A DNA stretch of 32,684 nucleotides from a virus: IMG/VR virus record IMGVR_UViG_3300035670_000835, positions 1 to 32,684 of that record; one strand, 5' to 3'. The first letter of the stretch is position 1. Each line of letters opens with the position of its first letter. Below are positions 128-28,405 of this stretch, piece after piece. The translations under genes and the position numbers were made by a program. The notes beneath the pieces were generated by a model. The model saw only the letters and a program-made list of their open reading frames with translations. It was not told the DNA's origin and ran no database searches.

Positions 128-971
128 TTTAAATGAATTAGATTTCAAAAAGATTTATGTAATAAATGGTGCTTATTTAAGACTACAAAAGATTATAGAT
201 TATAACGCAAATGGTTCTGAATTGACACAATGTGAATTCTTAAAATTAAAGTCACCTTCAAAATTTGTTAGAAGAAGTGTTGTTGCAAGTGATAATTTTA
301 CTGAATTGTCAGATGTTTCAAGACCTATAACGGTAGTCACAACAGAAAGACCACCACAACCTTGGAACAATACAACCAACTTGACTAATAAAATACCTGA
401 TGAACTGACTACCGTTCAAACTATCACTGTCAATGGTCAAAACAATGTTGTACAAAACAACACAAACAATGTCAGTATTCAAGGTAATGAAAACTATGTA
501 TCTTCAAATTCACAAAATATAAATATATCTGGTGGTGATGGTGTTTTCGTTTCTGGTGGTCTTAAAAATGTAAATGTAGTAGGAACATCTAAAATTGTTG
601 TTGATGAATCAGATGTCACCTATATCAATGGTATCAGATATAAATTCGGTGTTCCTGTAAGTAAGTCTTCAGTCATTGAATCAGGTTTTGATAATATATT
701 AGGTAAAAACGCAAACAACACTACAATAAATATAGTAGATGCTGGTGAAGATGTCACAATACCTTATGGTTCAACGACTTTTGAAAATGTAATAAATGCT
801 GGTCAAGATAAAATCCTACCAGATATACCTGACTATGGTGTATCATCTTTGAATTCAATAGTACCAATAACTAACTATACAGGTGCTTATGACCAACAGA
901 CTGGTACATCATCTTTACCAAATGTAATTTTACAAAAAGTAAATCCAGTGATTTATTTCAAAAACATATAA
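1..971 (+). CDS. Tail hub/tail-tip protein, C-terminal part (wraps from 29905)
   Basis: This is the 3' part of the gene that begins at 29905. The codon that spans 32557/1-2 is residue 885, and the frame then stays open from base 3 to the stop at 969-971, giving about 1,207 residues in total. The first part here (FFNRARWSNENLYNKYWKR, then a segment with LDFKKIYVINGAY) has the look of the end of a baseplate or hub domain in Bacteroidetes phages. After about residue 990 the sequence changes to an Asn/Val/Ser-rich, low-complexity stretch with NNV and GG spacing. It resembles a beta-solenoid or flexible tail and could be exposed on the tail tip. A Met-less start inside this piece should not be used, because the true start is on the other side of the join. 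The stop overlaps a putative late promoter for the next gene. Confidence 0.8.
   Translation, partial: FFNRARWSNENLYNKYWKRFIEEITDIDSKVIRCKLFLTPRDLNELDFKKIYVINGAYLRLQKIIDYNANGSELTQCEFLKLKSPSKFVRRSVVASDNFTELSDVSRPITVVTTERPPQPWNNTTNLTNKIPDELTTVQTITVNGQNNVVQNNTNNVSIQGNENYVSSNSQNINISGGDGVFVSGGLKNVNVVGTSKIVVDESDVTYINGIRYKFGVPVSKSSVIESGFDNILGKNANNTTINIVDAGEDVTIPYGSTTFENVINAGQDKILPDIPDYGVSSLNSIVPITNYTGAYDQQTGTSSLPNVILQKVNPVIYFKNI
940..969 (+). promoter_or_regulatory. Putative phage late promoter P1 (weaker upstream box)
   Basis: ACATAT at 964-969 with the CA dinucleotide of the upstream box at the usual position. The upstream box reads TAAATCCA here, two mismatches from the TAAAAACA form. It sits at the very end of the hub gene and 25 nt before the ATG at 995. 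Assignment rests on the shared pattern seen at the other sites. Confidence 0.4.
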
Positions 972-994
972 CAAAAATAAAAACATAATTAAAT

Positions 995-2161
995 ATGGCT
1001 CAAAAGATAGAACAATTCAGTAGATTATTACATCATAGATTGACAACACAAGGTGCTCTTTTTACGATACCTACTTCAAATGACCACACAGATGAAACCT
1101 GGTCAGCTACTGACCTTTATATTGGTGAAATCGGTATAAATGTTACAGATGATAAAATTTATATGAGAACTAACAATGGTATAGTTCAGATTGCAACTGG
1201 TACATCGTCAGGTGTGTCTTCAACAGCGAGTTCATCACCTTGGACTTTTACTGGTACAAATATTGAAATCGGTGCTACTTTTACAGCTAATGCTGTCACA
1301 AGAAAAACGGGCGTATTTACTGATTTAGGTAGTTCTACTTTAAGATGGAAGGATTTATACTTAGGTGGTTCAACAACTGGTTTTACTACAATATCTACTA
1401 ATTTAGGATTTGAAATAAGTGACTCAGTTTCAAGATTGATATCAACAGCGAATGCTTCTATTAATCAAATCACAATACAGATAGCTACACAATCTTCATC
1501 TGGTGCTAAGTCTCGTGTTTTACACTTAAATTCTACGGACACACAAACCTACGCAGCAACTAAGAATGCGGTATTTGTAGGTTCAAACAACTCTAAAATA
1601 TATGGTGGTGATAGAAATATAATTGTCGGTGGTAATCAAATATCACTGACCGCTTCTTGTGATAATGTTGTTTATTTAGGTTTAGGTTATAACAGATTCT
1701 TTAATTATTCTGATTCAGTCGGGGTTGGTGGTAAATTAGTTGTCAGAGGTGTTGATGATGATGGTTCAGGTCAATACAATGAAAGTGAATGGATAACAGG
1801 TCAAAAAAGATTGACTACATCAAATGCACTGACATACGCTATCTTTTCTATACCTATGAATATGACTTATGGTGAAGCTGTGATGGTAAAGGCTTATGTT
1901 TTGGGTGTTGATACATCTGATGCTACTTTAGTTCATTCAAATGAATTACTATTCACTGGTGTATGTGATGGTGCTTCTGCTTCAATTATACCTTCACCGA
2001 TTATAAATGAAATCGATAGTTTTAATGACAATGTAGAAGTTACGGTAGGTGTTGATAATAGTGTAGGTTCTTCAGATATAGAATTATATGTTAAAGGTAC
2101 TGCTACAAATACAATACAATGGTTGGTTACATACTCTTATCAGAGACTAATAAATATATAA
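995..2161 (+). CDS. Putative tail fibre/appendage protein
   Basis: This is a 388-residue protein without a recognised enzyme motif. Near residues 44-62 it has GEIGINVTDDKIYMRTNNG, a short motif of the type GE.AiN..d.kiy, which is common near the start of phage fibre and appendage proteins. A second fibre-like motif, LRWKDLYLG, lies at about residues 116-124. The rest is rich in Ser, Thr, Gly and Asn with alternating beta-strand patterns, and the C-terminal 120 residues look like a compact beta domain. It lies between the tail hub and the tape measure gene, so a tail-tip or side-fibre role is inferred. The start is the ATG after an A-rich leader; no Shine-Dalgarno sequence is visible. Which receptor it might bind cannot be told. 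Confidence 0.6.
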   Translation: MAQKIEQFSRLLHHRLTTQGALFTIPTSNDHTDETWSATDLYIGEIGINVTDDKIYMRTNNGIVQIATGTSSGVSSTASSSPWTFTGTNIEIGATFTANAVTRKTGVFTDLGSSTLRWKDLYLGGSTTGFTTISTNLGFEISDSVSRLISTANASINQITIQIATQSSSGAKSRVLHLNSTDTQTYAATKNAVFVGSNNSKIYGGDRNIIVGGNQISLTASCDNVVYLGLGYNRFFNYSDSVGVGGKLVVRGVDDDGSGQYNESEWITGQKRLTTSNALTYAIFSIPMNMTYGEAVMVKAYVLGVDTSDATLVHSNELLFTGVCDGASASIIPSPIINEIDSFNDNVEVTVGVDNSVGSSDIELYVKGTATNTIQWLVTYSYQRLINI

Positions 2162-2167
2162 ATATAA

Positions 2168-5100
2168 ATGGCAGATTTAAAATTAAATGTAGTCATAGGT
2201 GGTGTTGCACAAAGTGTTTCAACACTCGGTGAAGTAGAACAGGCTTTAAGAGATACAAGAGCAGAACTTGAGGGTGTTGCTATTGGTTCTGAGGCGTTCA
2301 AAGAACTGACAACACAAGCAAGAATTCTACAGGGTCAATTAGAACAAGTAGAAAAATCCATAAACTTTGAACAAAGTATAAATTTACTTGGTGAATCTGT
2401 TGGTCGATTAGGTGCGACGGTAGCTTCTGGTTTTGCTGTCATAACTTCAGCGTTTGCGTTATTTGGAGATGAAAGTGAAGAACTCACACAAGCTCAAATA
2501 AAGGCACAACAGACACTAAATTTAGTTTTAGGTGCTGCGACTATAGCAAGTAATTTATCTCGTGTTGGTCAAGACCTAAAGAATGTTTCTGATGCTTTAG
2601 GATTAAATTTAACAAGACAAAAAACAGCCGCTACATCTACAAACACCGTTGTGACAGGTATAAATACTGCTGCACAAGAAGCCAACGCTACGGCTACAAC
2701 AGCAGCAGCGACTGCTACCAGAGGTTTTACAGCGGCTTTAGCAGCTAATCCGATAGGTGCAATTGTAGTTGGTCTTACACTCTTAGTCACGGCTTTAGTT
2801 GCATTCGGTGGTGAAGCAGAAGAAACATACAGAATTCAAGAAGATTTGAATGAAGAAATTGAAAGAGGTACCAGTATTATCGATGCTGATATATCAAGAA
2901 AAAAAGAATTAATAAAAGTTGAAGGTCAATTAAAAGAAGCGAAGGCTTCCACACAAGAAGAAGCACTTAGAATAAGACTGGAAACACAGGCCCGTTTAGA
3001 TGAATTAGACCTTGAAGATATAGACAACCAAATCAGAAGTGAAAAAAGAAAGTTACAAAATATAAAAGAAACTTACAATCAACAATTCGCGTTTGCTACT
3101 GCTATATTTGAAAAACAAAAAACCTTACAAGACAGAAATATAATTATACAACAAGATGCTGTAACACAACAAAGAATTCAAATTGTAAATTTATATAAAA
3201 ACAATTTAATATCAGCTGAAACTTATTATAATAAAGTACTTGAATTTGAAGAAAATTTAGCAAAGATTCAAACATATGATTCACCAGAAGAAAAAGAAAA
3301 AGCACTTAAAAGAATAAATGACAGAAAAAATATTACAACAGCTTTAAGTGAATTAGAAAAAGACCGTACCAATCTTGAAAAAATTCAAGCACAACAACGA
3401 GAACTTGTTAGACAAGAAGAACTTAGAAAAAAACAAGAAGAAGCCAAAAAAGAAGCCGAAAGATTAAAAGCGGAACGACAAAAGGCAATTGAAGATAATG
3501 ACAAAGAACTTGAAGCTATTAATGACGCAATTGAAAAGAATGAAATTGAACGTAGAAAATTAAGAATTCAAGCTGGTGAAGAAGGTATAAGAATTAATGA
3601 AAGGTTATTAGATTTAGAACTTCAACAGGAAATTAAAGGTGTTAATGAATCTTTAGAAGAGAGAAAAAAAGAAATCAATGAAACTAAATCACTTTCAAGA
3701 CAGAAAAAAGACGCTTTGATAAAAGATGTTGAAGACGCGACTAAACTTGAAATTGATTCAATAAATCTTTTATTTGAAGAAAGAAGAAAAATTGCTGTTG
3801 AACAAGATGAACAATTAGTTTTAGAAGCTGAAGAAAGATCTACTAAATTAAAAAACATAAATGATATACTACAAAGTGAAATTAGATTTGGTGACCAAGA
3901 CACACTTGATAGTTTTGAGGCTTTACAAATTAAAAGAGATGAACTTCAAGCTGAACAACTTGCAAGATTTGCCGAAAGACAATTAAATCAAGAAGGTACT
4001 AATTTAATTGAATATGAAAACACTTTACGAAAACGAGAAGAATTGTTATTATCTTCGTTGAATAGAAGAGAACAAATTGAATTGAAAACTTTACAAGCAG
4101 AAAACTTAAGAAACTTAACTGCATTGGCAGAACAACTTGAACAAGAATTTGAACTTAAAACAGATTTTGATTCACGAGTTTTACAACAAGTTTTAGCATT
4201 TACTGATGAACAAGCCAAAATTGAACGAGACGCTCTTTTAGCAAGACAAGAAACATTGAATAATGAAGAAAGAGCGTACCTCGCTCTTTTACAAACAAGG
4301 GTCAATCAGACAGAAGAAACTCAAATAAAAACAACCGAGATTACACAACAATATGCAGACCAAAGAGTTCAAATCGAAAACGAAGCGGATGATAAAATCT
4401 TAGCTAAAAGATTAGAAGTTGTCAATACTATATTCAGTCAATTAAAGGATGCAACTCAGGCGTTAAGAAGTGATGTGACTGAACCATACTTCGCTGCACT
4501 TGATGTTTTACAACAAGGTATATCAGACTTTTTAGAAATTCAAGACAAAGAATTCGCTACCGCAATTGAAAAAGTAGCCGCATACGCGTCCGCTGCTTTG
4601 AGTGTTGTACAAGGTATATTATCTGCGATATCAGATGCGAACGCGACCGCTTTACAAAATGACTTAGAAGAATTTGAACGAGTAAAAAATGAAGAAACAG
4701 ATATTCTTACCCGTCAATTGAATTCTGGTTTAATAACACGAGAACAATATGACAAATCTGTTGATAAATTAGACAAAGACTTACAAAAGAAATCTTTAGC
4801 AGCAAAGAAGAAGGCGTTTGAAGAAGACAAAAACTTAAAAATAGCTCAGGCTATTATAGCCGGTCTTCAAGGTGCTTTGACAGCGTTCGCAGGAGCAATG
4901 CAATTAGGACCAATAGCGGGACCTATTGTCGGTGGTTTATTAGCCGCGGCTGTAACTACTTTGACTGGTGTTCAAATAGCCGCAATCAAAAGTACAAAAT
5001 TCGATTCGGGTGGTACAACAGAATCTATTAATGTACCAAATGTATCAGAACCAGGAAGTGAATTACAACAACAAGCAGGTTCTACTGGTGGTTTCACACA

Positions 5101-5254
5101 ATTCAATTCTGCATTGACTGGAACACCACAGGGTGGTTCTTCTACAACTACTGGTCAGGGTATGACTGATACAAGAGTTTATGTTTTAGAATCAGATATA
5201 TCATCTGTTCAAAGAAGAGTACAGGTTGCAGAATCTACTGCGACTTTTGGATAA
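2168..5254 (+). CDS. Tail tape measure protein
   Basis: At 1,028 residues this is one of the two longest proteins of the phage and the clear tape measure candidate. It sets tail length and is threaded inside the tail tube. The N-terminal 110 residues are amphipathic. A hydrophobic stretch at about 185-213 (AANPIGAIVVGLTLLVTALV) is followed by a very long charged coiled coil (about 220-760) rich in Glu, Lys, Arg and Gln. A second Ala/Gly-rich hydrophobic region lies at about 890-941, then a Gly/Ser/Thr-rich tail. This order of helix, membrane-active segment and coiled coil is typical of the family. With the usual relation of about 0.15 nm per residue, a tail of roughly 150 nm is expected. It starts 6 nt after the preceding stop. 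Unusually, the chaperone pair that normally sits next to this gene is about 11 kb away around the circle. Confidence 0.93.
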   Translation: MADLKLNVVIGGVAQSVSTLGEVEQALRDTRAELEGVAIGSEAFKELTTQARILQGQLEQVEKSINFEQSINLLGESVGRLGATVASGFAVITSAFALFGDESEELTQAQIKAQQTLNLVLGAATIASNLSRVGQDLKNVSDALGLNLTRQKTAATSTNTVVTGINTAAQEANATATTAAATATRGFTAALAANPIGAIVVGLTLLVTALVAFGGEAEETYRIQEDLNEEIERGTSIIDADISRKKELIKVEGQLKEAKASTQEEALRIRLETQARLDELDLEDIDNQIRSEKRKLQNIKETYNQQFAFATAIFEKQKTLQDRNIIIQQDAVTQQRIQIVNLYKNNLISAETYYNKVLEFEENLAKIQTYDSPEEKEKALKRINDRKNITTALSELEKDRTNLEKIQAQQRELVRQEELRKKQEEAKKEAERLKAERQKAIEDNDKELEAINDAIEKNEIERRKLRIQAGEEGIRINERLLDLELQQEIKGVNESLEERKKEINETKSLSRQKKDALIKDVEDATKLEIDSINLLFEERRKIAVEQDEQLVLEAEERSTKLKNINDILQSEIRFGDQDTLDSFEALQIKRDELQAEQLARFAERQLNQEGTNLIEYENTLRKREELLLSSLNRREQIELKTLQAENLRNLTALAEQLEQEFELKTDFDSRVLQQVLAFTDEQAKIERDALLARQETLNNEERAYLALLQTRVNQTEETQIKTTEITQQYADQRVQIENEADDKILAKRLEVVNTIFSQLKDATQALRSDVTEPYFAALDVLQQGISDFLEIQDKEFATAIEKVAAYASAALSVVQGILSAISDANATALQNDLEEFERVKNEETDILTRQLNSGLITREQYDKSVDKLDKDLQKKSLAAKKKAFEEDKNLKIAQAIIAGLQGALTAFAGAMQLGPIAGPIVGGLLAAAVTTLTGVQIAAIKSTKFDSGGTTESINVPNVSEPGSELQQQAGSTGGFTQFNSALTGTPQGGSSTTTGQGMTDTRVYVLESDISSVQRRVQVAESTATFG

Positions 5255-5281
5255 AAACAAAATCTCAAAAAAAAGACATAT
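5252..5281 (+). promoter_or_regulatory. Putative phage late promoter P2
   Basis: TAAAAACA at 5252-5259, 16 nt, then ACATAT at 5276-5281. It sits in the 33-nt gap between the tape measure and protease genes. Only 6 nt separate the hexamer from the ATG at 5288, so if it is a -10 element the mRNA would be nearly leaderless. Confidence 0.55.
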
Positions 5282-5287
5282 AAGTAT

Positions 5288-6358
5288 ATGGACAAAAAAC
5301 TACCTATTTTTGATGTCGTAATTAACGATGATACACAGGGTGTTGGTATGATATCTTTAGTTGATGAACCAGCTATAGGTGTCAATTGGATTAAATTAGC
5401 TAAACAAGCTGAATTGACTTTCAAAACAGACAAACAAAAACAACTTCTATATGGTCCTTTCTTAATTCCTAATATGTTGATTTATCGAAATGATGATATC
5501 AATGGCGAATATTATGTAAGATTTTCTAAAGAACAAATAGAAAAGATTGCTACTAAATTCAATGAAGATTTAAATAATAAAAATATAAACTTCATGCATA
5601 CTGAAAGAAAAGTAGAGGCTTTTGTAGCACAAAACTGGTTAATCGAAGGCGAACAAGACAAAAGTAGAAGTTTGAAGTTTGACTTACCTGAAGGCACTTG
5701 GTTTGGTGCAGTAAAAATCAAAGACCTCGACTTCTGGGAAAACGAAGTTCAGAATAACGAAGTCAAAGGTTTTTCAGTAGAAGTCTTAGCTGACTTAGAA
5801 CTAAACTTAAAAAATAAAAATAGACAAATGAAAAGAAAATTAAATTTTGCAACCGCAACTCTTCAAGATGGTACTATCGTTTATTATGATGGTGAATTAT
5901 CAGTAGGTACAGCAATCTTCATTGATGAAGCAATGACTGAACCTGCACCAGATGCTGACCACGTAGCTGAAGACGGAACTATTATAACTACTGTTGATGG
6001 TGTTGTTACTGAAATCAAACCAGTTGAAGTAGAAGAAGAAGTAGAAGCGGGTAAAAACAAGAAAAAAGAAAATATGGAAATCGATCCTAACACTGGTCAA
6101 GAATTACCTACACAAATTACACCTGAAGAAGTTTCTATGATGATTGATAACAGATTCGGTGAATTGATGGAAGAAATTACAAGACTTAAAATTATGATTG
6201 AAAAAGGTGAAGGTGAAGTTGAAGAATTCAAAAAACAAGTTAATGAAAAATTCTCTGTAACACCAGCTGTAAAATCTATTAAGAAACCTGAACCAAAACT
6301 TGATAGTAAATTTTCACAAATCGAAGCAAGAGTAAAATCTTTCGCTAAGATTAAATAA
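5288..6358 (+). CDS. XkdF-like prohead protease with scaffold-like C-terminal region
   Basis: The 356-residue protein has an N-terminal domain (about 1-170) that matches the XkdF/prohead serine protease pattern: GPFLIPNMLIYR, EYYVRFSKEQIEKIA, INFMH and VKGFSVEV. H104 and S163 are the probable catalytic pair. Such proteases trim the scaffold and capsid during head maturation. After residue 180 the sequence becomes acidic and then forms a short coiled coil (about 270-330), which ends in a Lys-rich tail (KSIKKPEPKLDSKF). This is the layout of a scaffolding protein. An in-frame ATG at 5828 (M181) follows an A-rich leader like the other starts here and could make the scaffold part separately. The gene directly precedes the major capsid gene, as expected for a head module. 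The protease assignment is strong; the scaffold role and internal start are inferred. Confidence 0.85.
   Translation: MDKKLPIFDVVINDDTQGVGMISLVDEPAIGVNWIKLAKQAELTFKTDKQKQLLYGPFLIPNMLIYRNDDINGEYYVRFSKEQIEKIATKFNEDLNNKNINFMHTERKVEAFVAQNWLIEGEQDKSRSLKFDLPEGTWFGAVKIKDLDFWENEVQNNEVKGFSVEVLADLELNLKNKNRQMKRKLNFATATLQDGTIVYYDGELSVGTAIFIDEAMTEPAPDADHVAEDGTIITTVDGVVTEIKPVEVEEEVEAGKNKKKENMEIDPNTGQELPTQITPEEVSMMIDNRFGELMEEITRLKIMIEKGEGEVEEFKKQVNEKFSVTPAVKSIKKPEPKLDSKFSQIEARVKSFAKIK
5828..6358 (+). other. Possible internal start giving a separate scaffold protein
   Basis: The in-frame ATG at 5828 (M181 of the protease) would yield a 176-residue protein with the acidic and coiled-coil segments only. It is preceded by an A-rich run that resembles the leaders of other genes in this phage. 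Nested scaffold genes within protease genes are established in lambda (C/Nu3). Here it is only a reading of the sequence. Confidence 0.3.
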
Positions 6359-6385
6359 AAACAAAAACTAAGTTTTTAAACATAT
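6356..6385 (+). promoter_or_regulatory. Putative phage late promoter P3 (capsid gene)
   Basis: TAAAAACA at 6356-6363, 16 nt, then ACATAT at 6380-6385, which is 33 nt before the capsid ATG. It overlaps the protease stop codon. The leader that follows is very A-rich. Confidence 0.55.
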
Positions 6386-6418
6386 AGTTTATAACTACAA
6401 AAAAAAATTAAAATTATT

Positions 6419-7324: not shown

Positions 7325-7358
7325 TCCTTATAGGATATAAAAATAAAAATTTGAAAAT

Positions 7359-7874: not shown

Positions 7875-7890
7875 TCACTATATATAAATA

Positions 7891-7926
7891 AAGAACCGAC
7901 ATTGTGAAAACTTTGTCGGTTTTTTT
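7891..7926 (+). terminator. Rho-independent terminator after capsid and tail tube genes
   Basis: The inverted repeat AACCGACA (7894-7901) / TGTCGGTT (7914-7921) has a 12-nt loop and runs directly into a T tract (7920-7926). Three further pairs, one of them G-U, extend the stem at its base. It is placed 17 nt behind the tube gene stop and would end the capsid transcript before the portal operon. Confidence 0.88.
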
Positions 7927-7931
7927 GTTTT

Positions 7932-7961
7932 GAAAAACAACATTCAAATTAAAAGACATAT
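7932..7961 (+). promoter_or_regulatory. Putative phage late promoter P4 (portal operon)
   Basis: GAAAAACA at 7932-7939, 16 nt, then ACATAT at 7956-7961, 18 nt before the ATG at 7980. Its position right behind a strong terminator is what a promoter for the next operon should look like. This is one of the best supporting sites for the motif. Confidence 0.62.
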
Positions 7962-8333: not shown

Positions 8334-8336
8334 AAT

Positions 8337-14868: not shown

Positions 14869-14898
14869 ATATGTTTAATATCCGTAAAGATGTTTGTT
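14869..14898 (-). promoter_or_regulatory. Putative phage late promoter P7 (minor head gene)
   Basis: On the minus strand, AACAAACA (14898-14891), 16 nt, then ACATAT (14874-14869), followed 21 nt later by the ATG at 14847. The motif overlaps the end of the HNH gene. Finding the same layout on the opposite strand in front of a probable virion gene supports a regulatory function. Confidence 0.5.
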
Positions 14899-15339
14899 TG
14901 TAGCTGACATTTTAGCTTTATTATAAGCATCTAATGCTTCCTGTTCTGTATTAAATCTACCTAACCATATTTTTTTATTATTAATTCTTATTTCGCTTTT
15001 CCATTTGTTAGTAAATTTACAATAGTGATAACCTTTGACATTTTTTTTATTTAAGCAATTGTCTCTTGCGGTAAGATATCTTAAATTACAAGCTCTATTA
15101 TCAAATTTATCTCCGTTTATGTGATCTACATCTAATTTAGAAAACCCTAAAAAAGTAAGAGCTACTAACCTATGTACTGACTTTGATTTATTTTTACCAT
15201 TTATAGTTAGTTGCGCATAATAATATCTTTTATGACTATTTGATAATTTTAATAGTCCTCTTTTACCTCTTATTTTACCTAAGTTACTGGCTTGATATAA
15301 TCCTTCATAACCTGGTATATCTTTCCAAATCTCTTCCAT
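14875..15339 (-). CDS. HNH homing endonuclease (NUMOD4-HNH-AP2-like)
   Basis: The 154-residue protein has three recognisable parts. A NUMOD4 motif is at residues 3-24 (EIWKDIPGYEGLYQASNLG), and an HNH_3-type core is at about 56-88 with H56 and DHINGDKFDNRACNLR. The catalytic candidates are H73 and the N80/N85 region. An AP2-like DNA-binding end is at about 104-142 (GYHYCKFTNKWKSEI, WLGRF, EALDAYNKAK). Proteins of this kind cut a specific site and spread as free-standing or intron-borne homing genes. It sits between the membrane/small-gene cluster and the minor head gene without interrupting a reading frame, so it appears free-standing. Its 3' end carries the late promoter-like site of the next gene. 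Confidence 0.92.
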   Translation of the reverse strand: MEEIWKDIPGYEGLYQASNLGKIRGKRGLLKLSNSHKRYYYAQLTINGKNKSKSVHRLVALTFLGFSKLDVDHINGDKFDNRACNLRYLTARDNCLNKKNVKGYHYCKFTNKWKSEIRINNKKIWLGRFNTEQEALDAYNKAKMSATNKHLYGY

Positions 15340-15341
15340 AT

Positions 15342-15566
15342 TTACTTTTTAACACCACCTCTTTCTTGCCACCATTGTTTTAACCTGTTATACACTCTTG
15401 CTCTGCAGCCAGAACAGCTAACACTATATTCCATAATGCCAGTTACTTCATTATGTAAATTAAATAAATTTCTTATTGTTTGTGCGTCGTGTCTATGATT
15501 CTCTTTACCTACAAGTTCTTGCATCATAGCATCGACTTTCTGAAACCTCAATTCTTCATCTGTCAT
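15342..15566 (-). CDS. Hypothetical small protein with CxxC motif
   Basis: The protein has about 74 residues, starting MTDEELRFQKV. The end (SVSCSGCRARVYNRLKQWWQ) has a CxxC pair and a basic aromatic helix; one pair alone is not a full zinc site. I chose the ATG at 15566 because its ATGA overlaps the stop of the membrane protein gene. A longer frame up to 15698 would overlap that gene by 136 bases and has no support. It ends 2 nt before the HNH gene start. Confidence 0.65.
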   Translation of the reverse strand: MTDEELRFQKVDAMMQELVGKENHRHDAQTIRNLFNLHNEVTGIMEYSVSCSGCRARVYNRLKQWWQERGGVKK

Positions 15567-15820
15567 ATTCCGTTGTTTAATTTTTGATATAATATTTCTG
15601 ATATAACTGCGCATATACTTGAACCTATTATATCTATGTTTCCGTAGTAAAAAAGTTGATACCAAAAGTAAATATGAAAAGTCGAACACATTGCACATTC
15701 GAGTAATCTTCTAAAGAAACCTTGATGATTTCTTAAGATAAATTCTCTAAGTCTTATCGTAGGTTCTGAACAAATCCAAAGAACACCTACACAAGCTAAA
15801 CCAATTATTTCAAACCACAT
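15563..15820 (-). CDS. Small membrane protein with C..C motif
   Basis: The 85-residue protein has a hydrophobic N-terminal helix (residues 2-16, WFEIIGLACVGVLWI) and further hydrophobic stretches at about 47-77 (FHIYFWYQLFYYG, IIGSSICAVISEILY), so two or three membrane helices are likely. The motif LLECAMCSTFHIYFW resembles the C..C.GFW element of small membrane proteins often seen in Bacteroidetes phages (DUF1360-like), but this similarity is weak. Its start overlaps the end of the sigma-like gene by 16 nt, and its stop overlaps the next gene by ATGA. A role in lysis or superinfection exclusion is possible but not shown. Confidence 0.65.
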   Translation of the reverse strand: MWFEIIGLACVGVLWICSEPTIRLREFILRNHQGFFRRLLECAMCSTFHIYFWYQLFYYGNIDIIGSSICAVISEILYQKLNNGI

Positions 15821-16377
15821 TGTAATTTAATTTTAATTTTTAAGTCTGATATCATATTATATATAGTAGAAAGTGGTAAGTCTAATTTTTTTGCTATATC
15901 TCTCATTGACAACATCTTAATAAAGTAAAAGTCATAAAGAACTTTTTCGTGTGTTTTTAATTCTAAATATATTTTTCTAAGTAAAATAAGTCTATCAGCT
16001 TGTAGGTCACTAAATCGATTATGTATATCAATTAACCATTCTTTAATATCATTTAATTCACACTCTGCTGCTATTTCAATACCATTATCAATAGCTTCAT
16101 CTTTGATTGACCACTCTTCATCTAAATTGTTTATACTTAATGATTTATTGAATTCTGAAGATTCCCATCTTGTATTGTTTTTGAACCAAGTTTGTGTGAA
16201 TTTCTTTCTTTCATCACCATCTGGTATCTGTGAAAACTTAGACCAATTTTTATCAATGTATAACCAATAAAAAGTAATTAAGTCAGACCAGTATTGTGGT
16301 GACCATTTTTTAGACCAATATTGTATCCATTTATAATTTGATATGAACCATAATTCACTCGTCTTCACAAAAGTCAA
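15805..16377 (-). CDS. Sigma-70 region 4-like DNA-binding protein
   Basis: The protein has up to 190 residues. The C terminus, at about 145-184, reads like the helix-turn-helix of sigma factor region 4: EKVLYDFYFIKMLSMRDIAKKL, then PLSTIYNMISDLKIKIK. This part would bind a promoter -35 element. The N-terminal 90 residues are very rich in Trp (ten by count) and Tyr (WIQYWSKKWSPQYWSDLITF) and match no sigma region that I know. The frame has no ATG before about residue 155: the possible starts are TTG at 16377 or GTG at 16368, and a stop lies just upstream. The gene is in an overlapping operon with zinc-ribbon and winged-helix genes, a regulatory context. A phage transcription factor for later genes is a reasonable inference. 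Confidence 0.6.
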   Translation of the reverse strand: MTFVKTSELWFISNYKWIQYWSKKWSPQYWSDLITFYWLYIDKNWSKFSQIPDGDERKKFTQTWFKNNTRWESSEFNKSLSINNLDEEWSIKDEAIDNGIEIAAECELNDIKEWLIDIHNRFSDLQADRLILLRKIYLELKTHEKVLYDFYFIKMLSMRDIAKKLDLPLSTIYNMISDLKIKIKLQCGLK

Positions 16378-19250: not shown

Positions 19251-19281
19251 CAAATATACGGATACTTTTCCGATTTACAAA
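19251..19281 (-). promoter_or_regulatory. Bacteroidetes-type early promoter of gene 19206
   Basis: On the minus strand, TTTG (19281-19278), 19 nt, then TATATTTG (19258-19251), which fits the Bacteroidetes consensus TTTG-N19-TAnnTTTG exactly. The gene start at 19206 is 45 nt downstream. Confidence 0.75.
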
Positions 19282-19540: not shown

Positions 19541-19571
19541 CAAAGATAAGGAATTTTTTGTAATTTACAAA
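19541..19571 (-). promoter_or_regulatory. Bacteroidetes-type early promoter of gene 19510
   Basis: On the minus strand, TTTG (19571-19568), 19 nt, then TATCTTTG (19548-19541). This is a perfect match to TTTG-N19-TAnnTTTG, about 31 nt before the ATG. Confidence 0.75.
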
Positions 19572-20328: not shown

Positions 20329-20598
20329 TTAAGATTTCATAAATCTTGTGAACATAAAAGCCGCATGTAAATCAAGAATATCTGATCCTAAACAAATTCT
20401 ATCATACTCATAAGAAGTAGCCAAAAAGCTGCAATTTTCATAGACATCAAAAAACATAATGTTCGTAGATTCATCATCTAAATCTAAATTAATACCTGTG
20501 TTGAATAACAACTCAATCATCTTTTCAACTGAGAAAAATTCATTAAAGAAGATTTCTTTATCTCGGTTCATAACATACTTTTCTTTGTAAGTTTTCAT
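20329..20598 (-). CDS. Hypothetical small acidic protein
   Basis: The 89-residue protein is acidic and aromatic-rich (MNRDKEIFFNEFFSVEKMIEL, LDLDDESTNIMFFDVYENCS). No known motif is present. It is the outermost gene of the minus-strand early cluster and lies back to back with the terminase operon. M9 is a possible later start. The leader AATAAAAACACT before the ATG recurs in front of gene 19803. Small acidic early proteins often bind host enzymes, but nothing here names a target. Confidence 0.6.
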   Translation of the reverse strand: MKTYKEKYVMNRDKEIFFNEFFSVEKMIELLFNTGINLDLDDESTNIMFFDVYENCSFLATSYEYDRICLGSDILDLHAAFMFTRFMKS

Positions 20599-20627
20599 AG
20601 TGTTTTTATTTTAGTGTTAGACATATA

Positions 20628-20635
20628 CAAATATA
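20628..20635 (-). promoter_or_regulatory. Bacteroidetes-type -7 box of gene 20598
   Basis: TATATTTG on the minus strand (20635-20628) fits TAnnTTTG, 29 nt before the ATG. I see no TTTG at the usual 19-20 nt upstream, so the site is weaker than the others. Confidence 0.5.
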
Positions 20636-20652
20636 CAAACATTTTTTAAATA

Positions 20653-20682
20653 AAAAAACATTTAGACAAAAATTTTCTATAA
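20653..20682 (+). promoter_or_regulatory. Putative middle promoter P8 (CTATAA type), terminase operon
   Basis: AAAAAACA at 20653-20660, 16 nt, then CTATAA at 20677-20682, 5 nt before the ATG at 20688. It has the same layout as P9, which controls the regulatory operon on the other strand. Confidence 0.42.
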
Positions 20683-20687
20683 AATTT

Positions 20688-21326
20688 ATGAATCAGAATA
20701 AAAAAGAATTTAATCGTAATTGGTCTTTATCAGAAGATTTAAGTGAATTGACTATAACTTTTAAATTATCTGACCATACTTTAGATACAAAACTACCATC
20801 AGATATAATTTTCTTTCCGAAGAAAATTAAAAATGTACCACTTAAAACACAAGGTGGTGATTTAGCAGCACTTTTACAAGAATTGCAACAACTCAAATCA
20901 TCATACAAATTAGAACTATACGACTTGAATACAATCGACAGACATTGTTATTTTTTATGGATTGATATAATTGATATGATGATAGAAAATATATTGCCAA
21001 ATCCAAGAAAACTATACTTTATGCAAAACCAAGATGGTTTGATTAAGATTGGTATAAGCAAAGATGTAAGGGCAAGAAAGTCTTCTTTACAATATCAGTT
21101 AGGTGATAAAATTAGTATTATCAAAACACTATCATATCCTGAAAAAGAAAAAGATATTCATAATTTATTTGCGTCATCTAATGCCTACTACGCTGGTGGT
21201 ATAGAATGGTTTAATCCTCATCCTGATTTGATTAAATTTATTGATGATGTAACTGATGAAAACTTCCAAAAATTATATAAAAAATTATGCCAGAAAAATC
21301 TAAATACACTAAAGAAGAAGTCATAG
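20688..21326 (+). CDS. GIY-YIG-like (MUG113/T5orf172) domain protein
   Basis: The 212-residue protein has an N-terminal part without known features (about 1-105). From about 107 to 195 it has a MUG113/T5orf172-type domain of the GIY-YIG-like fold: KLYFMQNQDGLIKIGISKDV, then RKSSLQYQLGDKISIIKTL, EKDIHNLFA and GGIEWFNP. The strand YFMQ, the IKIG.S motif, the Arg of ARKSSLQ and the E..IH..F element are the parts that mark the family. Members are thought to be nucleases or DNA-binding proteins; activity here is not shown. The end overlaps the start of the small terminase gene by 40 nt, so it is tied to the packaging operon. Confidence 0.7.
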   Translation: MNQNKKEFNRNWSLSEDLSELTITFKLSDHTLDTKLPSDIIFFPKKIKNVPLKTQGGDLAALLQELQQLKSSYKLELYDLNTIDRHCYFLWIDIIDMMIENILPNPRKLYFMQNQDGLIKIGISKDVRARKSSLQYQLGDKISIIKTLSYPEKEKDIHNLFASSNAYYAGGIEWFNPHPDLIKFIDDVTDENFQKLYKKLCQKNLNTLKKKS

Positions 21327-21730: not shown

Positions 21731-22931
21731 ATTAAACTTGAAAGGCACACCTGTGTTGAATCAATTGTTAAAATCAAATAAAAGATTTGTACTTTCAGTG
21801 GGTTCGTCTCGTTCATCTAAAACATATTCTATGTTACAATGGATAATGTTAGAGTGTATAAAAAATCCTAATAAAGGCTTATACACTTCAGTTGTAAGAG
21901 CTTCTTTTCCATCACTCAGAAGAACTGTGTATAGAGAATTTGTTGAACTACTTAAATCACATAATTTATACTCAGAAGATAAACACAATAAAACAGAACA
22001 TCTAATAGAACTTTTTGGTAACTACATTGAATTCTTTTCGTTAGGTGACTCACAAAAGGTTCGTGGTGCTAAAAGGAATTATCTTTATTTGAATGAATGT
22101 AACGAGATAGATTATGAATCAGCACAACAATTATTTTTAAGAACAACTGAAAGAGTTTTTATGGATCAGAATCCGAGTGATATGTGGCACTGGTCTTTCA
22201 AAATGAAAGATAGAGAAGATGTTGATTATATACATTCTACTTACAAACAAAATCCTTTTTTGACTGAGGCAACAATAAAACAAATAGAATCTTATAAAGA
22301 AACTGATGAGAACTTTTATCGTGTTTATGCACTTGGACTACCAGGTTTTGCGACAACAACGATATACACACATTGGAAAGAATACAAAGAAAAAGACTTA
22401 AAAGTTTTTAGTGAAGATGGTAAAGAACAACCTTTTTATGATACATTTGTTTATGGCTTAGATGTCGGTTATGGTCACGCAATGGCTTTAACTAAGTGCC
22501 ACTTCAAAGATGATACAGTATGGGTTGATGAATTAATATATAAATCAGGTTTGACTTCTAATGATTTAATATCATTAATAAACGATATGAAATTAGACAA
22601 AGATATTGATATGTGGGTTGATGCCGCAGCTCCATCTATGATTGAAGATTTAAGAAGAGCTGGTTATAATGCAAAGTCAGCTGACAAATCTGTCAAAGAA
22701 GGAATAGATATGATTAGGTCTAAAAAAATATTCATCAATACTGAATCTACAAACCTGCTTAACGAAATGAGAAGATATCAGTGGAAGACTAAAAATGAAC
22801 AAATAATTTACGAACCCGTAAAAGTCAATGATGACTTAGTAGATAGTATGAGATACGGTATATGGAACTATTATAGAAATACACAAAGGCGTGATGCGTA
22901 TGACTTTGATATAGATTGGATTGACTTATGA
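21723..22931 (+). CDS. terL: Terminase large subunit (Terminase_3 type)
   Basis: The 402-residue ATPase/nuclease pumps DNA into the head and cuts it. The Walker A motif is GSSRSSKT at residues 27-34, and Walker B is LYLNEC at about 121-126 with E125 as the likely catalytic Glu. The nuclease acidic residues are D247 (YGLDVGYG), D300 (WVDAAAPS) and D371/D374 (NDDLVDSMRYG). The pattern with RS.KT and a nuclease of the GLD.G type matches the Terminase_3/PBSX-like family. Length is normal for the family. It overlaps the small subunit by 8 nt and the next gene by ATGA. Confidence 0.97.
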   Translation: MSKLNLKGTPVLNQLLKSNKRFVLSVGSSRSSKTYSMLQWIMLECIKNPNKGLYTSVVRASFPSLRRTVYREFVELLKSHNLYSEDKHNKTEHLIELFGNYIEFFSLGDSQKVRGAKRNYLYLNECNEIDYESAQQLFLRTTERVFMDQNPSDMWHWSFKMKDREDVDYIHSTYKQNPFLTEATIKQIESYKETDENFYRVYALGLPGFATTTIYTHWKEYKEKDLKVFSEDGKEQPFYDTFVYGLDVGYGHAMALTKCHFKDDTVWVDELIYKSGLTSNDLISLINDMKLDKDIDMWVDAAAPSMIEDLRRAGYNAKSADKSVKEGIDMIRSKKIFINTESTNLLNEMRRYQWKTKNEQIIYEPVKVNDDLVDSMRYGIWNYYRNTQRRDAYDFDIDWIDL

Positions 22932-23116
22932 CAAAAGAAACGATTATACAAACAGACAACTATACTCTACAAAGGATATCTTTCAAATTAAAAATGAAAC
23001 CGATATATAGAGAAGTTATAAAACAAAATGGTCAATTGTCTGTAAAAGAATATGACAAACCACCAATCTGGTTTGTAAGATTAAAAAAAATTAATTATCT
23101 CTTAAATGAAGAATAA
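22928..23116 (+). CDS. Hypothetical small protein
   Basis: The 62-residue protein is basic, with KLKMKPIYREVIKQNG and KPPIWFVRLKKINYLL. No known motif is recognised. It begins in an ATGA overlap with the large terminase gene and ends 15 nt before the chaperone gene, so it is in the same operon. A small connector or accessory protein is possible. Confidence 0.6.
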   Translation: MTKETIIQTDNYTLQRISFKLKMKPIYREVIKQNGQLSVKEYDKPPIWFVRLKKINYLLNEE

Positions 23117-23131
23117 AAAAAATGGAACCAA

Positions 23132-23785
23132 ATGTTGAATATACCAAAGTCTTGGTCAGAGGTAAAAGTAGGTACCTTTCAAGAACTACACTCAGTTGAA
23201 TCAGAAACAGAAATAGGTGTTTTAATTGCTAAGTTGTCTATACTTGCTGATTGTGATTCAGAAGATATCAGACGACTACCTATCAGTCAATTCAATAAAA
23301 TAAAATCTGATATAGAATTTATGTCTAAACCACTTTCTAAAAAGATTAATCTTAAAATAGAAATTGATGGTAAAAAATATGGTATGATACCTGATTTGAA
23401 CTTTTTATCTGCTGGTGAATTTTTAGATTCAGAAAACTGGAAAGAAAAATCTATTGAAAATCTACATTTATATCTCGCACTTCTTTACAGACCTATAATC
23501 TGGGAAGATGGTGAAGATTATAAAATTGAACCACATAAGTCTGAAGGTTTTACCCGTAGAGCAGAATTGTTTAGACAACATCTAACTATTGAAAATGTGT
23601 GGGGTACCTTACTTTTTTTTTCGAGTTTAGGTCTGAATTGTACGAAAGTTATTCTGGATTATTTGGAATCAACACAGACAGAAACAGACAAACCTCAGAA
23701 GAAGATGAAGAAGACCTCGACCCGCAAAGTTACGAAGAACAACAAGCAGAAAAATTCAACAGAGACTGGGTCTGGTATGATATGA
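23132..23785 (+). CDS. Tail assembly chaperone, short form
   Basis: The 217-residue protein is the zero-frame product of a probable chaperone pair. The N-terminal 163 residues are shared with the frameshift product: SWSEVKVGTFQELHSVES, a motif seen at the start of Bacteroidetes tail chaperones, then LYLALLYRPIIWEDGEDY at about 110-127. After the T9 run (23613-23621) the zero frame adds 54 mostly basic and polar residues (KPQKKMKKTSTRKVTKNNKQ). The protein is expected to keep the tape measure protein soluble during tube assembly. The shift to the -1 frame makes the longer form. The neighbourhood (packaging genes before, tail gene after) fits a tail module. Confidence 0.75.
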   Translation: MLNIPKSWSEVKVGTFQELHSVESETEIGVLIAKLSILADCDSEDIRRLPISQFNKIKSDIEFMSKPLSKKINLKIEIDGKKYGMIPDLNFLSAGEFLDSENWKEKSIENLHLYLALLYRPIIWEDGEDYKIEPHKSEGFTRRAELFRQHLTIENVWGTLLFFSSLGLNCTKVILDYLESTQTETDKPQKKMKKTSTRKVTKNNKQKNSTETGSGMI

Positions 23786-23904
23786 TATCTAAAATGTGTG
23801 ATGATGACTTATTGAAGATTCAAGAATATTATGAACTACCTATAAAGGCTGTCTTAAATCACTTGTCATATAAATTAGCAAAAACAAAAACAACACATAA
23901 ATAA
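23599..23904 (+). CDS. Tail assembly chaperone, -1 frameshift extension
   Basis: This is the -1 frame from the slip site to the stop at 23902-23904. A slip at residue 163 gives a fused protein of about 257 residues. The extension is acidic first (SEEDEEDLDPQSYEEQQAEK) and ends with FNRDWVWYDMISKMCDDDLLK and AVLNHLSY. The W.W...I..L...D and ...N.LSY elements are typical of the second part of tail chaperones in Bacteroidetes phages. The GTG at 23599 is only the nearest NTG codon; no leader suggests independent translation. By analogy with lambda G/GT, the extension would contact the tape measure protein. Confidence 0.7.
   Translation: MGYLTFFFEFRSELYESYSGLFGINTDRNRQTSEEDEEDLDPQSYEEQQAEKFNRDWVWYDMISKMCDDDLLKIQEYYELPIKAVLNHLSYKLAKTKTTHK
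23613..23621 (+). other. Slippery T9 run, probable programmed -1 frameshift site
   Basis: The zero frame reads CTT TTT TTT TCG; in the -1 frame the same bases read T TTT TTT TTC. The two Phe codons can re-pair exactly after a one-base backward slip. A sequencing indel in the T run is the main alternative. No clear pseudoknot was seen downstream by eye. Confidence 0.65.
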
Positions 23905-23914
23905 AAAGACATAT
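23885..23914 (+). promoter_or_regulatory. Putative phage late promoter P5
   Basis: CAAAAACA at 23885-23892, 16 nt, then ACATAT at 23909-23914, only 5 nt before the ATG at 23920. It overlaps the end of the frameshift frame. Confidence 0.55.
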
Positions 23915-23919
23915 TAATT

Positions 23920-24384
23920 ATGATAGGATATTTATCACAGAATGGTATGAACAAAGTTTTTGAACAATTTGTTCAATATGACCCTAACTTAAATCAATAT
24001 GGATTTGGTCAATTATATAAAGAAAACGGGGAACCTAAAGTAAATCAAGTTTATGCTGGTATGTGGGTTCAACCACTTACTACACAAGTAACAGATTATA
24101 CTATTATAAGAAATTACCAAATTCTAATTTATGACTTAGTATTTGATAATCAAAATTTAGTTATATCAGATTGTGAAGAAATTGGTTTTAGACTAATAAG
24201 ATTCTTAAAAGACAAATCAGATATCTTTTACATATCAGGTCAGCCTACAATGAATCCTTTTCAAGATAGATTTTTAGATGATGTATCAGGTGTAATTATA
24301 GATGTAGCAATTGAATTCAATGGTGAATCTGCGAATTGTGAAGATCCTGACTATTCATTTACAATAAAACAAAATGATATTTAA
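23920..24384 (+). CDS. Putative tail completion/terminator-like protein
   Basis: The 154-residue protein begins [17 protein letters not shown]. It has the motif [21 protein letters not shown], the strand region [31 protein letters not shown], and near the end [16 protein letters not shown] and CEDPDY. Proteins of this kind are common in tail modules of Bacteroidetes phages. The helix and strand order ([12 protein letters not shown] then a beta pair) resembles tail terminator proteins, which cap the tube before head joining. This is pattern-based, so another neck or tail role cannot be excluded. Its stop overlaps the fibre start by TAATG. Confidence 0.5.
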
Positions 24385-26630
24385 TGAAAAAAGTAGGTAT
24401 ATCATATAATTCAAATATACAAGGTGACAGCCTTATAATCAACAATGGTACAACAGCATCAACACAATTTACTTTTGTAGGTAATTCTAATTTGACTTTC
24501 AATTTACCTTTAGTAGATGGTCAGCCTGGTCAAGCGATTATCACAGATGGTTCAGGTAATCTTTCATTCGGTACGGTATCATCACAATCAGGAACCGTGT
24601 CAGGTACAGGTTCTTCACCTAAGTTAGCTTATTGGACTTCAGCAAATACTCTCGCTGATTCTGATGCTGAACAAGGTACAGGTCAAATTATATTTCCAGG
24701 TGGTTCAAATGCTGCACCAGGTGTTGCATTCAAATTAGATACCGATACAGGTATTTTTAGACCAGGTAACAACAGAGTCGGTGTCGCTGGTGGTGGTGTG
24801 ACATTAGCTATATTCAACTCAGCGGGTGTTCAGACAGGTGGTGTAAATTATACAAATGTAGCAGGTACTTCTGGTCAAATGTTAGCAATCAACCCCTCTG
24901 GTTTCACTTACTGGACTGATGGTGTTGTAGGTCCGACTGGTTCGACAGGTTCAAGTGGTACCTCAGGTACTTCAGGATTAAGTGGTACCTCAGGTACATC
25001 AGGTCAAAACGGTACCTCAGGTGTAGATGGAACATCAGGAACATCTGGTCTAAATGGTACTTCTGGTACCTCAGGATTAAGTGGTTCTTCTGGTACTTCT
25101 GGTCTAAATGGTACTTCTGGTACATCAGGATTAAACGGAACTTCTGGTTCATCAGGTATAAGTGGTTCGTCAGGTTCATCAGGTCAAACAGGAACATCAG
25201 GAACTTCTGGTCTGAATGGTACATCAGGAACTTCTGGTCTGAATGGTACATCAGGTATAAATGGTACATCAGGTATAAATGGTACATCTGGTCAAGACGG
25301 AACTTCAGGTACATCTGGATTAAGTGGTTCTTCTGGTACATCAGGTCAAACAGGAACTTCAGGAACTTCTGGAACATCAACTAATCAAACATTAGAACAA
25401 ACGCTTTCATTAGGAAACACGACTGGTACTCATTCTATTTTAATCGATAATGGAACAGTTGGAACACCATCTATAGCTTTCACAAGTGATACAGATACTG
25501 GTATTTATAGAGTAGGGTCAAATATAATAGGATTTGCTTCTGGTGGTAATAGAGCATTTCAAGCAGTATCAAATCAAATACAAGCAGAGGATGGAACATC
25601 AGGAACACCTTCAATTGCCTTTAGAAATGATTCAGACACAGGTTTTTATAGAGTGTCAGGAAATATATTCGCATCAACTAATGCTGGTGTAAGAGGAGTA
25701 GTTTTTCAATCAACAGCGACAAGATTTGATTTACCACTTTATGCATTAAATGGCACAGAAGCCGCACCAGCATACACTTTTGTGAATGACCCAACAACTG
25801 GTTTATATCAAGCATCAAATGAACTAAGAATTTCAACACAAGGTGGTTTGGCTTTACAAATTGCTTCTGCATCAACGAGATTTAAGGATGGAACGAATGC
25901 TTTACCGAGTATAAGTTTTATAGGTGATACTGATACCGGATTATATAGAACTGGTGCTAACAATTTCAGGATTACTGCTGGTGGAACTGACATAGTCGGA
26001 TTTACAATATTAGGTTCAACACCAGTAATGGGTATGATAAATCAAACAACTGGAAGGTTCTATATGGGACAAGGTTCAGCAGCAACACCATCTTTGACAT
26101 ATGAGGCCGATTTAGACACTGGTATATACAGACCAGCAACAAATCAACTCGGTATATCAACTGGTGGTGCTACATCCGCAGTGTTCAATTCATCAGGTAT
26201 AGTTTTACCACAATTATCAAATACACTTATAGGTGTTGATGCAAATGGTCAAATTATAGCAACTCAGTCTCGTGGTTGTTTTGGAATTACAATAGATGGT
26301 GCTGGTTCAGCTATCACAACAGGTTTGAAAGGTTACATATATGCACCATACGATTGTATTATAGATTGTTGGGGTGTAATCGCAGACCAGTCAGGTTCAA
26401 TAGTTGTAGATGTATGGAAAGGTTCTTCACCACTTGACATACCTCTAACTTCTACCTATAGTATAGCGGGTTCTGAAAAACCAACTTTATCTTCACAACA
26501 ATCAAATGTAGATACAAACTTGACAACTTGGACTACTAATCTTGTTTTCGGTGATGTCATTGCATTCAATGTTGATAGTGCTTCGACTGTGACAAGAGCA
26601 ACAATACAAATAAAAGTAATTAAAGTATAA
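24384..26630 (+). CDS. Large GTSG-repeat tail fibre (fibre module 2)
   Basis: The 748-residue protein has an N-terminal anchor, then a long [13 protein letters not shown] shaft at about residues 189-332. Next come five to six modules of the type DTDTGIYR (variants DTGIFR, DTGFYR, TTGLYQ, DTGLYR) spread over about 120-600; each has the frame ...PSIAF..DTDTG.YR..N. Such short beta modules are typical of trimeric phage fibres. The last 115 residues match the C-terminal domain of fibre 1, sharing [25 protein letters not shown] and [10 protein letters not shown]. It probably binds the host surface. The overlap with the preceding gene (TAATG) shows operon coupling. Confidence 0.85.
24950..25380 (+). 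repeat. GTSG-coding tandem repeats in fibre 2
   Basis: Many short units of the type GGTACTTCTGG, GGTACATCAGG and GGAACATCAGG encode a (GTSG)n shaft. Codon choice among copies varies (GGT/GGA, ACT/ACA, TCT/TCA), so the repeats are old or selected to avoid exact identity. They also give a spurious open frame on the minus strand. Confidence 0.85.
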
Positions 26631-26631
26631 T

Positions 26632-27894
26632 ATGGCTACAAGAACAGTAAGTGCGGCTGGTGGTAACTGGAACAACACAGCTACTTGGGTTGGTGGTGTA
26701 GTACCAACTACAAGTGATGATATAGCAGCGGATGCGACAAGTGGTAATTTGACTGTCAATGTCAATGTCAGTGTCCGATTTGCTGACTTCACTGGATATA
26801 CAGGAACTCTACAAATAAATAGTGGTAATACTCTTACTCTTACTTTATCTGGTTCTACTACAACATTTGGAAGTGGTATGAGTTATAATTTTGTTGGTTC
26901 TGGTGCTACACGAGGACGAATTGTCAAAGGAAATACAGCTATGACTTTTACTATGTTAGGAACTACACCTATACCCCATTTCTCGAATACTGGTGTAGCA
27001 ACATTGACGGCTGGTAGTGACCTTTACTTTAATAATATATACAACACTGCTTCTGGTTTAAGAATAGACGGTAACAATGTTTATATTGATCAAAGTTTAG
27101 AAAGTAGTGGTCGTGCATTCGCTGGTACCACAACTTATCATATGACAGGAACTGGAACGCTATCAGGGACACTTGGTGGTTTTAGTAATATCAATAACAA
27201 TTTGATAATAAATACAACTGGAACTATTACTCTTAGTGCATTTGGATTTGGATTTGCTAATGTAAATTCAAATAATACTTTTACACACACAGCCGGAACT
27301 ATTGTTAATCCTGAAATTAGAGCATCACTGCAATTATCACCATCAACGAATACACTTGATTTAATAAGTGGTGTAACTTGGAGTTTTTATCAATCACCTA
27401 ATATAAATGGAAATTACAATTTGACATTCGTTGGAACACCACAATTTGACAAGTTTATTTTACAGAATAATTATACTACTACACAAACCTTTACTATTGA
27501 TGGTGTTGATGTTACAATGAATGAATTAAATATACAACTTCCGTTGATATCTTATACAAAAAGTAGTTATGATTTTGTCATCACACCAGGTTGTGATGTA
27601 ACTGTCAATTCTTTTATTGACCTTAATGGTGGTTCAGTTGATCCAAGTTCTGCTCAAACACCGACTTTAGAAATACTTTCAGCTTCAGCAGGAACACCAG
27701 CAGTATTAAATGTAAATTCATACTCACAATATGTTTCAAGAGTAAGTTTCACAGATATAGATTGTAGTGGTGGAAATACTTTATATGGTCAAAATTTGAC
27801 TTTATCTAATACAACTAACATATCACAATATACTTTACCACCATCAGGTGGAACATCAAGTGGTGGTGAAACATCACATACATTCTTTAGTTAA
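26632..27894 (+). CDS. Beta-rich receptor-binding-like protein (module 2)
   Basis: The 420-residue protein has the motif TATWVGGVVPTTSDDI at about residues 17-32, matching STWVGGVVP of the gene behind fibre 1. It is Gly, Thr, Asn and Ser-rich with regular short strands (LTVNVNVSVRFADFTGYTG, NNLIINTTGTI, LNVNSYSQYVSRVSF), consistent with a parallel beta-helix or G8-like domain. It lies 1 nt behind fibre 2, as its counterpart lies directly behind fibre 1. It may be a fibre tip or a surface enzyme; no catalytic residues are evident. The rest of the two proteins looks divergent, so the shared motif may mark a common base domain. Confidence 0.65.
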   Translation: MATRTVSAAGGNWNNTATWVGGVVPTTSDDIAADATSGNLTVNVNVSVRFADFTGYTGTLQINSGNTLTLTLSGSTTTFGSGMSYNFVGSGATRGRIVKGNTAMTFTMLGTTPIPHFSNTGVATLTAGSDLYFNNIYNTASGLRIDGNNVYIDQSLESSGRAFAGTTTYHMTGTGTLSGTLGGFSNINNNLIINTTGTITLSAFGFGFANVNSNNTFTHTAGTIVNPEIRASLQLSPSTNTLDLISGVTWSFYQSPNINGNYNLTFVGTPQFDKFILQNNYTTTQTFTIDGVDVTMNELNIQLPLISYTKSSYDFVITPGCDVTVNSFIDLNGGSVDPSSAQTPTLEILSASAGTPAVLNVNSYSQYVSRVSFTDIDCSGGNTLYGQNLTLSNTTNISQYTLPPSGGTSSGGETSHTFFS

Positions 27895-27897
27895 TTT

Positions 27898-28377
27898 ATG
27901 AATGAAGAATTAAAAAGATTTTTTGAACAAGTATATGACCAGTGGGGTCAAGGTACGGTACAAGCTATATTAAAAGAAATTGACAGATATCCTATAAAGT
28001 GGCGTGGTACTCTTCGTAGGTCTATATCATATCAAATAGGTGATGTCGCAGGTGAAGACGCAATCAGTTTTAATATGGCTGATTATGGTGAATTTGTAGA
28101 TAAAGGTGTAAATGGTATATTTCAAAACAGAGGTTCTAAATATAATTTTAGAATTAGTTCAATAGGTGGTGTTGCTTATCACGTAAAACCTTGGGCTGAT
28201 TCTAAAGGTCTAAACAACTGGGCTGTAGCTCGTTCTATAGTCAGAAAAGGTTTCAAACCAAGACCATTCTTTGATTCAGTTATTCAAGCAAGATTTCCTA
28301 AACTTCAAGAAGACCTGACACAGGCTTATCAATCTTATTTAGATTCACAGGTCGAATCCATCAATAGGTCAAATTAA
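27898..28377 (+). CDS. HK97 gp10-like tail completion protein
   Basis: The 159-residue protein has the typical gp10-like layout. An N-terminal helix and basic stretch (PIKWRGTLRRSISYQIGD) is followed by a strand and the motif ADYGEFVDKGVNG at about 61-73, which is close to YAEFVE.GTG of the family. The C-terminal half has KPWADSKGL and KGFKPRPFFDSV, where the PRPFF motif is also common in gp10-like proteins. The family joins the neck to the tail. It starts 3 nt after the beta-rich gene. The match is by motif and size. Confidence 0.75.
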   Translation: MNEELKRFFEQVYDQWGQGTVQAILKEIDRYPIKWRGTLRRSISYQIGDVAGEDAISFNMADYGEFVDKGVNGIFQNRGSKYNFRISSIGGVAYHVKPWADSKGLNNWAVARSIVRKGFKPRPFFDSVIQARFPKLQEDLTQAYQSYLDSQVESINRSN

Positions 28378-28405
28378 AAAACATACAACAAAACTTAAAA
28401 CATAT
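28376..28405 (+). promoter_or_regulatory. Putative phage late promoter P6
   Basis: AAAAAACA at 28376-28383, 16 nt, then ACATAT at 28400-28405, 20 nt before the ATG at 28426. It falls in the 48-nt gap before the distal tail gene. Confidence 0.5.

Follow-up and report, generated by a model that had tools for sequence, protein, structure and literature searches.

A two-part motif repeated across IMG/VR record IMGVR_UViG_3300035670_000835 is very probably the late-gene promoter in a small family of Bacteroidetes-infecting viruses. We analysed a stretch of 32,684 bases from this record (32% G+C, 68% A+T; hereafter the window) and propose, with a probability of about 85%, that AAAACA-N17-[C/T]ATA[T/A][A/T] forms the −35 and −10 boxes of a late promoter, which would be read by host RNA polymerase with a phage-encoded ECF-like sigma factor (15805-16377). 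The motif, its gene bias, its fixed spacing, its position relative to ATG and its co-variation across lineages are drawn from sequence, and the sigma fold from a structural model; from these we infer binding, start sites and timing.

The original prediction described the motif as AAAAACA-N16-ACATAT. Five exact copies occur in the window against 0.01 expected from shuffles, all on the plus strand and each preceding a gene, which establishes the bipartite motif as real. ACATAT by itself is not enriched (40 observed, 38 expected); the signal therefore resides in the pairing of the boxes and their fixed distance, in line with the earlier argument for the fixed position. A weight matrix scan, which had been suggested as a check, gave seven window sites above 15.5 bits versus 0.08 expected in simulated sequence, with a matrix trained mostly on relatives. 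AAAACA followed by N17, as given above, is the better register.

The five exact copies are assigned as late promoters of gene 5288 (5253..5281), gene 6419 (6357..6385), gene 7980 (7933..7961), gene 23920 together with the tail-fibre genes (23886..23914), and gene 28426 (28377..28405). The first lies 6 nt upstream of the ATG of an XkdF-like prohead protease gene (Peptidase_S78_2, E = 8.5e-16), the second leaves a 33-nt gap to the ATG of the major capsid protein candidate, and the site at 23886 is 5 nt from its ATG. A 748-aa tail-fibre protein with collagen-like tail-fibre matches is encoded at 24384-26630 (plus strand). Just upstream of the 7933 promoter, an intrinsic terminator with a T run (7886..7930, plus strand; −17.6 kcal/mol, z = −4.5) corresponds to the strong terminator reported there before.

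Seven sites had been proposed in total. The five exact copies stood, as did the minus-strand site of gene 14847 (14869..14897; ACAAACA-N16-ACATAT, one mismatch, weight matrix score 17.2); this gene (379 aa) is located towards the far end of the leftward block. The pair assigned to gene 995 (388 aa), AAATCCA at 941 with ACATAT at 964, was misregistered: the ACATAT falls within the true upstream box, AAAAACATAT. The actual site (960..988, plus strand) consists of AAAAACA (960-966), N16 and ACATAA (983-988), scores 27.8 where the null maximum averages 11.9, and is of the leaderless type, with the ATG (995) 6 nt downstream. An eighth, weaker site at about 20654..20683 (plus strand; AAAAACA-N17-TATAAA, score 13.0) is a probable late promoter of gene 20688, with which the rightward terminase cluster begins. 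The TATAAA variant of the −10 box seen at this site is the rule in three relatives (G001, G004 and G007). The product of this first gene (20688-21326, plus strand) is a GIY-YIG/T5orf172-domain protein. An HNH endonuclease gene occupies 14875-15339 (minus strand); an 85-bp piece there (15262-15346) is 87% identical to the human faecal phage MT835473, which is otherwise unmatched, and this suggests a mobile gene. Rfam and tRNA scans found nothing.

Gene 6419 is conserved (phrog_1623, virion structural protein) and probably encodes the major capsid protein. Using its protein, we collected 42 related loci; the motif is kept in most of the capsid-gene leaders of these relatives. Across about 523 kb of related contigs (the 42 loci and other fetched loci, with some contigs overlapping), we counted 33 copies of the exact motif and none of the reversed pattern. 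An unbiased dyad scan of spaced tetramer pairs in 707 upstream windows ranked AAAC-N18-CATA at the top (79 observed, 4.8 expected). The weight matrix returned 112 matches, 104 of them distinct, at a threshold that about five matches pass in reversed sequence, with the consensus A[A/T]AAACAA-N16-A[C/T]ATA[T/A]. Whether the motif lies within genes or before them had been named as a test of the prediction: 93 of the 104 distinct matches have a called start nearby on the same strand, nearly always within 35 nt, and several of the remaining 11 are start-calling or contig-end cases. Unrelated Bacteroidetes phages, examined as negative controls, held 0-1 main-type sites each and no comparable set. 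In one relative (G009; a record of 44471 bases), the promoter sequences repeat at a distance of 33,678 bases; the contig therefore exceeds a single genome length, which puts the phage genome at about 33.7 kb.

The gap between hexamer and ATG is bimodal: it measures either 5-9 nt or 16-35 nt, with hardly any sites at intermediate distances, and about half of the sites fall into the shorter class. If transcription starts approximately 6 nt after the hexamer, as we propose, the two classes would correspond to transcripts without a leader and with one of about 10-30 nt, respectively, implying that about half of the late mRNAs are leaderless and begin at, or a few nucleotides from, the start codon. 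The proposed start agrees with the host geometry in F. johnsoniae, where transcription begins 4-5 nt after TANNTTTG (PMC6847099); leaders longer than 10 nt were found there in 87% of predicted transcripts (PMC6847099).

In the 11 near-complete genomes, the motif (lineage variants allowed) stands before 72 of 116 genes on the late strand and 5 of 73 on the early strand (Fisher, p = 2.5e-15), where strand serves as a proxy for class and nearly all modules of one genome (G005) lie on a single strand. Host-type TAnnTTTG has the opposite preference, preceding 6 of 116 late-strand versus 18 of 73 early-strand genes (p = 2e-4), and stands before no late-strand gene in the window. Its −7 elements were located on the minus strand for early genes 20598 (TATATTTG, 20628..20635), 19510 (TATCTTTG, 19541..19548) and 19206 (TATATTTG, 19251..19258). 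A host primary-sigma promoter at the late sites was rejected, since TAnnTTTG is absent there and present at early ones; the motif is thus distinct from the host TTTG/TAnnTTTG type, as had been noted. A scan for E. coli-type sigma70 promoters gave matches no more frequently than in shuffles. The TAnnTTTG promoters and the host of the distantly related phage P12024L point to Bacteroidetes as the host phylum; a capsid search of bacterial genomes for the host found no relative. The late-strand bias in 11 genomes, together with the presence of a sigma-like gene in the window and all near-complete relatives, supports the original prediction's reading of a phage-specific late promoter.

This gene (15805..16377, minus strand; TTG start as called) encodes a candidate ECF-like sigma factor of 190 aa. 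The protein matches phrog_1190 (sigma factor; E = 4e-4) and Sigma70_r4_2 (E = 8e-5 per genome; 18 bits, below the curated cut-off of 25.7); the sigma70 region 2 profile gave no match, and it is chiefly the predicted structure that makes region 2 recognisable. In the AlphaFold2 model (pLDDT 78), two helical domains (7-80 and 109-190) flank a disordered linker (79-108). The best Foldseek matches were the ECF sigma factors 6dv9 and 1or7 (probability 0.99-1.00), at modest E-values of 0.004-0.02 and with an unreliable relative domain placement, given the large whole-chain rmsd. VIA-align indicated the same family, nearly all structural matches being sigma factors. The C-terminal domain resembles region 4 of sigmaE as seen in the −35 DNA complex 2h27, with a TM-score of 0.77-0.79. 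The model supports a fold of sigma2 and sigma4 joined by a linker, the two domains found in ECF proteins. Homologs are present in 14 other contigs, including every near-complete genome (eleven); the protein is a plausible candidate reader of the late motif.

A second sigma2 protein, similar to T4 gp55, is encoded by five relatives (G006, G009, G010, G027 and G028). It was rejected as the universal reader because the window and most relatives are without it. In G006, the gp55-like gene (L061:1859-2236; phrog_234, late sigma transcription factor) lies directly before the terminase gene. The G023 contig harbors two different sigma-like genes (L123:2173-2754 and L123:6601-7215): one of them clearly matches Sigma70_r2, and the other is a relative of the window sigma.

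Dyad scans by lineage yielded AAAC-N18-CATA in the main group, AAAC-N18-TATA in G001, G004 and G007, and AAGC-N17-CATA in G015. The alignment showed the recognition helix PVMATYLM in G015 alone, as is the case for the AAGCA box; the other sigmas carry a P-x-S-[A/T/S] helix, mostly PLSAVYNM, and mostly end their first domain in S[D/E]FN. The three relatives that use TATAAA are also the only ones with NSKHNV at the end of the sigma2 domain, placed by position in the −10-reading region. More distant variants include AAACA-N16-CGTTA in P12024L and its relative G024 (11 of 11 before genes, none reversed), GTAACA-N16-GTTNTAATA in G025, and AWACA-N16-TAYTTWA in G021 and G023. Matches to sigma region 2 were obtained for P12024L gp35, above the Pfam cut-off, and for a G025 protein; homology of gp35 to the window sigma was not detectable by sequence. 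The AWACA/TATTTA group (5 sites) is the weakest, since the control phage hattifnatt9-1 gave four matches (1 reversed) to this loosest pattern. A search for further genomes with a G015- or G005-type sigma found none. Each change in box and sigma represents a single lineage event, so that the independent points are few, and the joint divergence of late-promoter boxes and phage sigma is suggestive. On balance, we favour a family of Bacteroidetes phages with matched, diverging ECF-like sigma/promoter pairs (AAACA/CATATW, AAACA/TATAAA, AAGCA/CATATA, AWACA/TATTTA, AAACA/CGTTA and GTAACA/GTTNTAATA), in which many late mRNAs would be leaderless, with the start codon inside the start site of the promoter.

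Under the proposed mechanism, host RNA polymerase with the host primary sigma would first read the TAnnTTTG promoters and transcribe the leftward block, which includes the sigma-like gene. The two-domain protein would then reprogram the host core polymerase to the late promoters, which would switch on the structural and packaging genes that run rightward, plus a single gene towards the far end of the leftward block. The spacing fits ECF-type promoters, with an AAC-bearing −35 box and a 16-17 bp spacer (AAACA-N17-CATAW in the dyad scan and weight matrix). ECF sigma factors in general typically use −35 boxes that contain AAC, and Bacteroidetes hosts have many such factors, so a host alternative sigma (e.g., a host ECF), or host holoenzyme with a phage activator, could read the late promoters while the phage protein does otherwise. 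We regard this as unlikely, as the boxes differ by phage lineage, tracking changes in the phage protein, and the gene is kept in every near-complete relative.

The capsid leaders bear on a second alternative, in which the motif is an RNA-level signal (a translation enhancer, or a processing or stability element) in late mRNA leaders. A palindrome covers the −10 box of the window's capsid-gene promoter (6371..6396, plus strand), and hairpin z-scores average −3.6 in 36 capsid leaders versus −0.2 at 95 other sites. It straddles the −10 box in most relatives, its arms changing but remaining complementary; L025 and L047 are exceptions, with the palindrome just downstream. This covarying hairpin and the proximity to start codons would suit an RNA signal. 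However, the other 95 sites lack such structure, the boxes keep a constant 16-nt gap and yet vary, in two classes, in their distance to the ATG, a 16-17 bp separation of the boxes matches sigma geometry, and one site lies directly behind a terminator, leaving an RNA-level role very improbable. With the promoter reading and its proposed start site, the left arm would be untranscribed; the palindrome may therefore be an operator or act in read-through RNA.

Phage-specific late promoters of fixed length are also typical of phages with a single-subunit RNA polymerase, and such an enzyme might read the motif; this is more improbable still, given that the window proteins searched had no RNA polymerase family match in PHROGs and that two boxes with a free 16-nt spacer are unlike a contiguous T7-type promoter. 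A chance match of A-runs, for which the 68% A+T content and the unenriched ACATAT might speak, is refuted by the shuffle (5 versus 0.01 expected), reversed-pattern (33 versus 0), dyad-scan (top rank) and weight-matrix counts.

T4, phiEco32 and 7-11 are known precedents for a phage sigma factor paired with late promoters of its own (PMC4331800). In the open-access literature that we searched, we did not encounter this motif, its diversification within a family of Bacteroidetes phages, the leaderless geometry, or any description of late transcription in phages of this kind; the P12024L record carries no promoter annotation. Bacteroidetes have an unusual primary sigma and promoter and are a phylum without Shine-Dalgarno signals. 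If correct, our reading would offer a set of possibly orthogonal sigma/promoter pairs for these bacteria, a clean test of how promoter boxes are retuned by changes in sigma regions 2 and 4, and an example of late expression without leaders in such a phylum. The cultured phages P12024L and P12024S make testing practical.

Among known systems, phiEco32 and 7-11 resemble the window phage in placing structural and functional genes on opposite strands, in having host-type promoters for the early genes and a phage sigma gene in the functional cluster, and in a phage-specific motif before late genes (PMC4331800). In 7-11, however, the motif is a single 12-nt element (TGTGATGTTATA) with about four late copies, compared with two boxes at a fixed 16-17 bp gap here. 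The window phage further differs from 7-11 in its seven or eight sites within 33 kb, many apparently leaderless, and in its presumed Bacteroidetes host. T4 late promoters (TATAAATA) likewise rely on a phage sigma, gp55, that redirects host core polymerase to late genes, as we propose here, and some relatives of the window phage carry a gp55-like gene. T4 late promoters lack a −35 box and depend on gp33 and the sliding clamp, whereas the window phage has a conserved −35 box and a sigma4 domain. The group 4 (ECF) sigmas sigmaE, SigW and SigL share the sigma2 and sigma4 domains with a linker, the AAC −35 box and a spacer of about 16 bp, and P12024L has CGTTA in the −10 position; the window sigma is very diverged in sequence, below Pfam cut-offs, and its −10 box is CATATW rather than the usual CGTC. 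The Nonlabens phages P12024L and P12024S (Inhavirus) differ in their −10 box (CGTTAATA) and in a gp35 without clear sequence similarity to the window sigma, and share a distant capsid homolog (28% identity), the AAACA box before late genes and a sigma gene of their own, gp35, annotated as Sigma-70 region 2.
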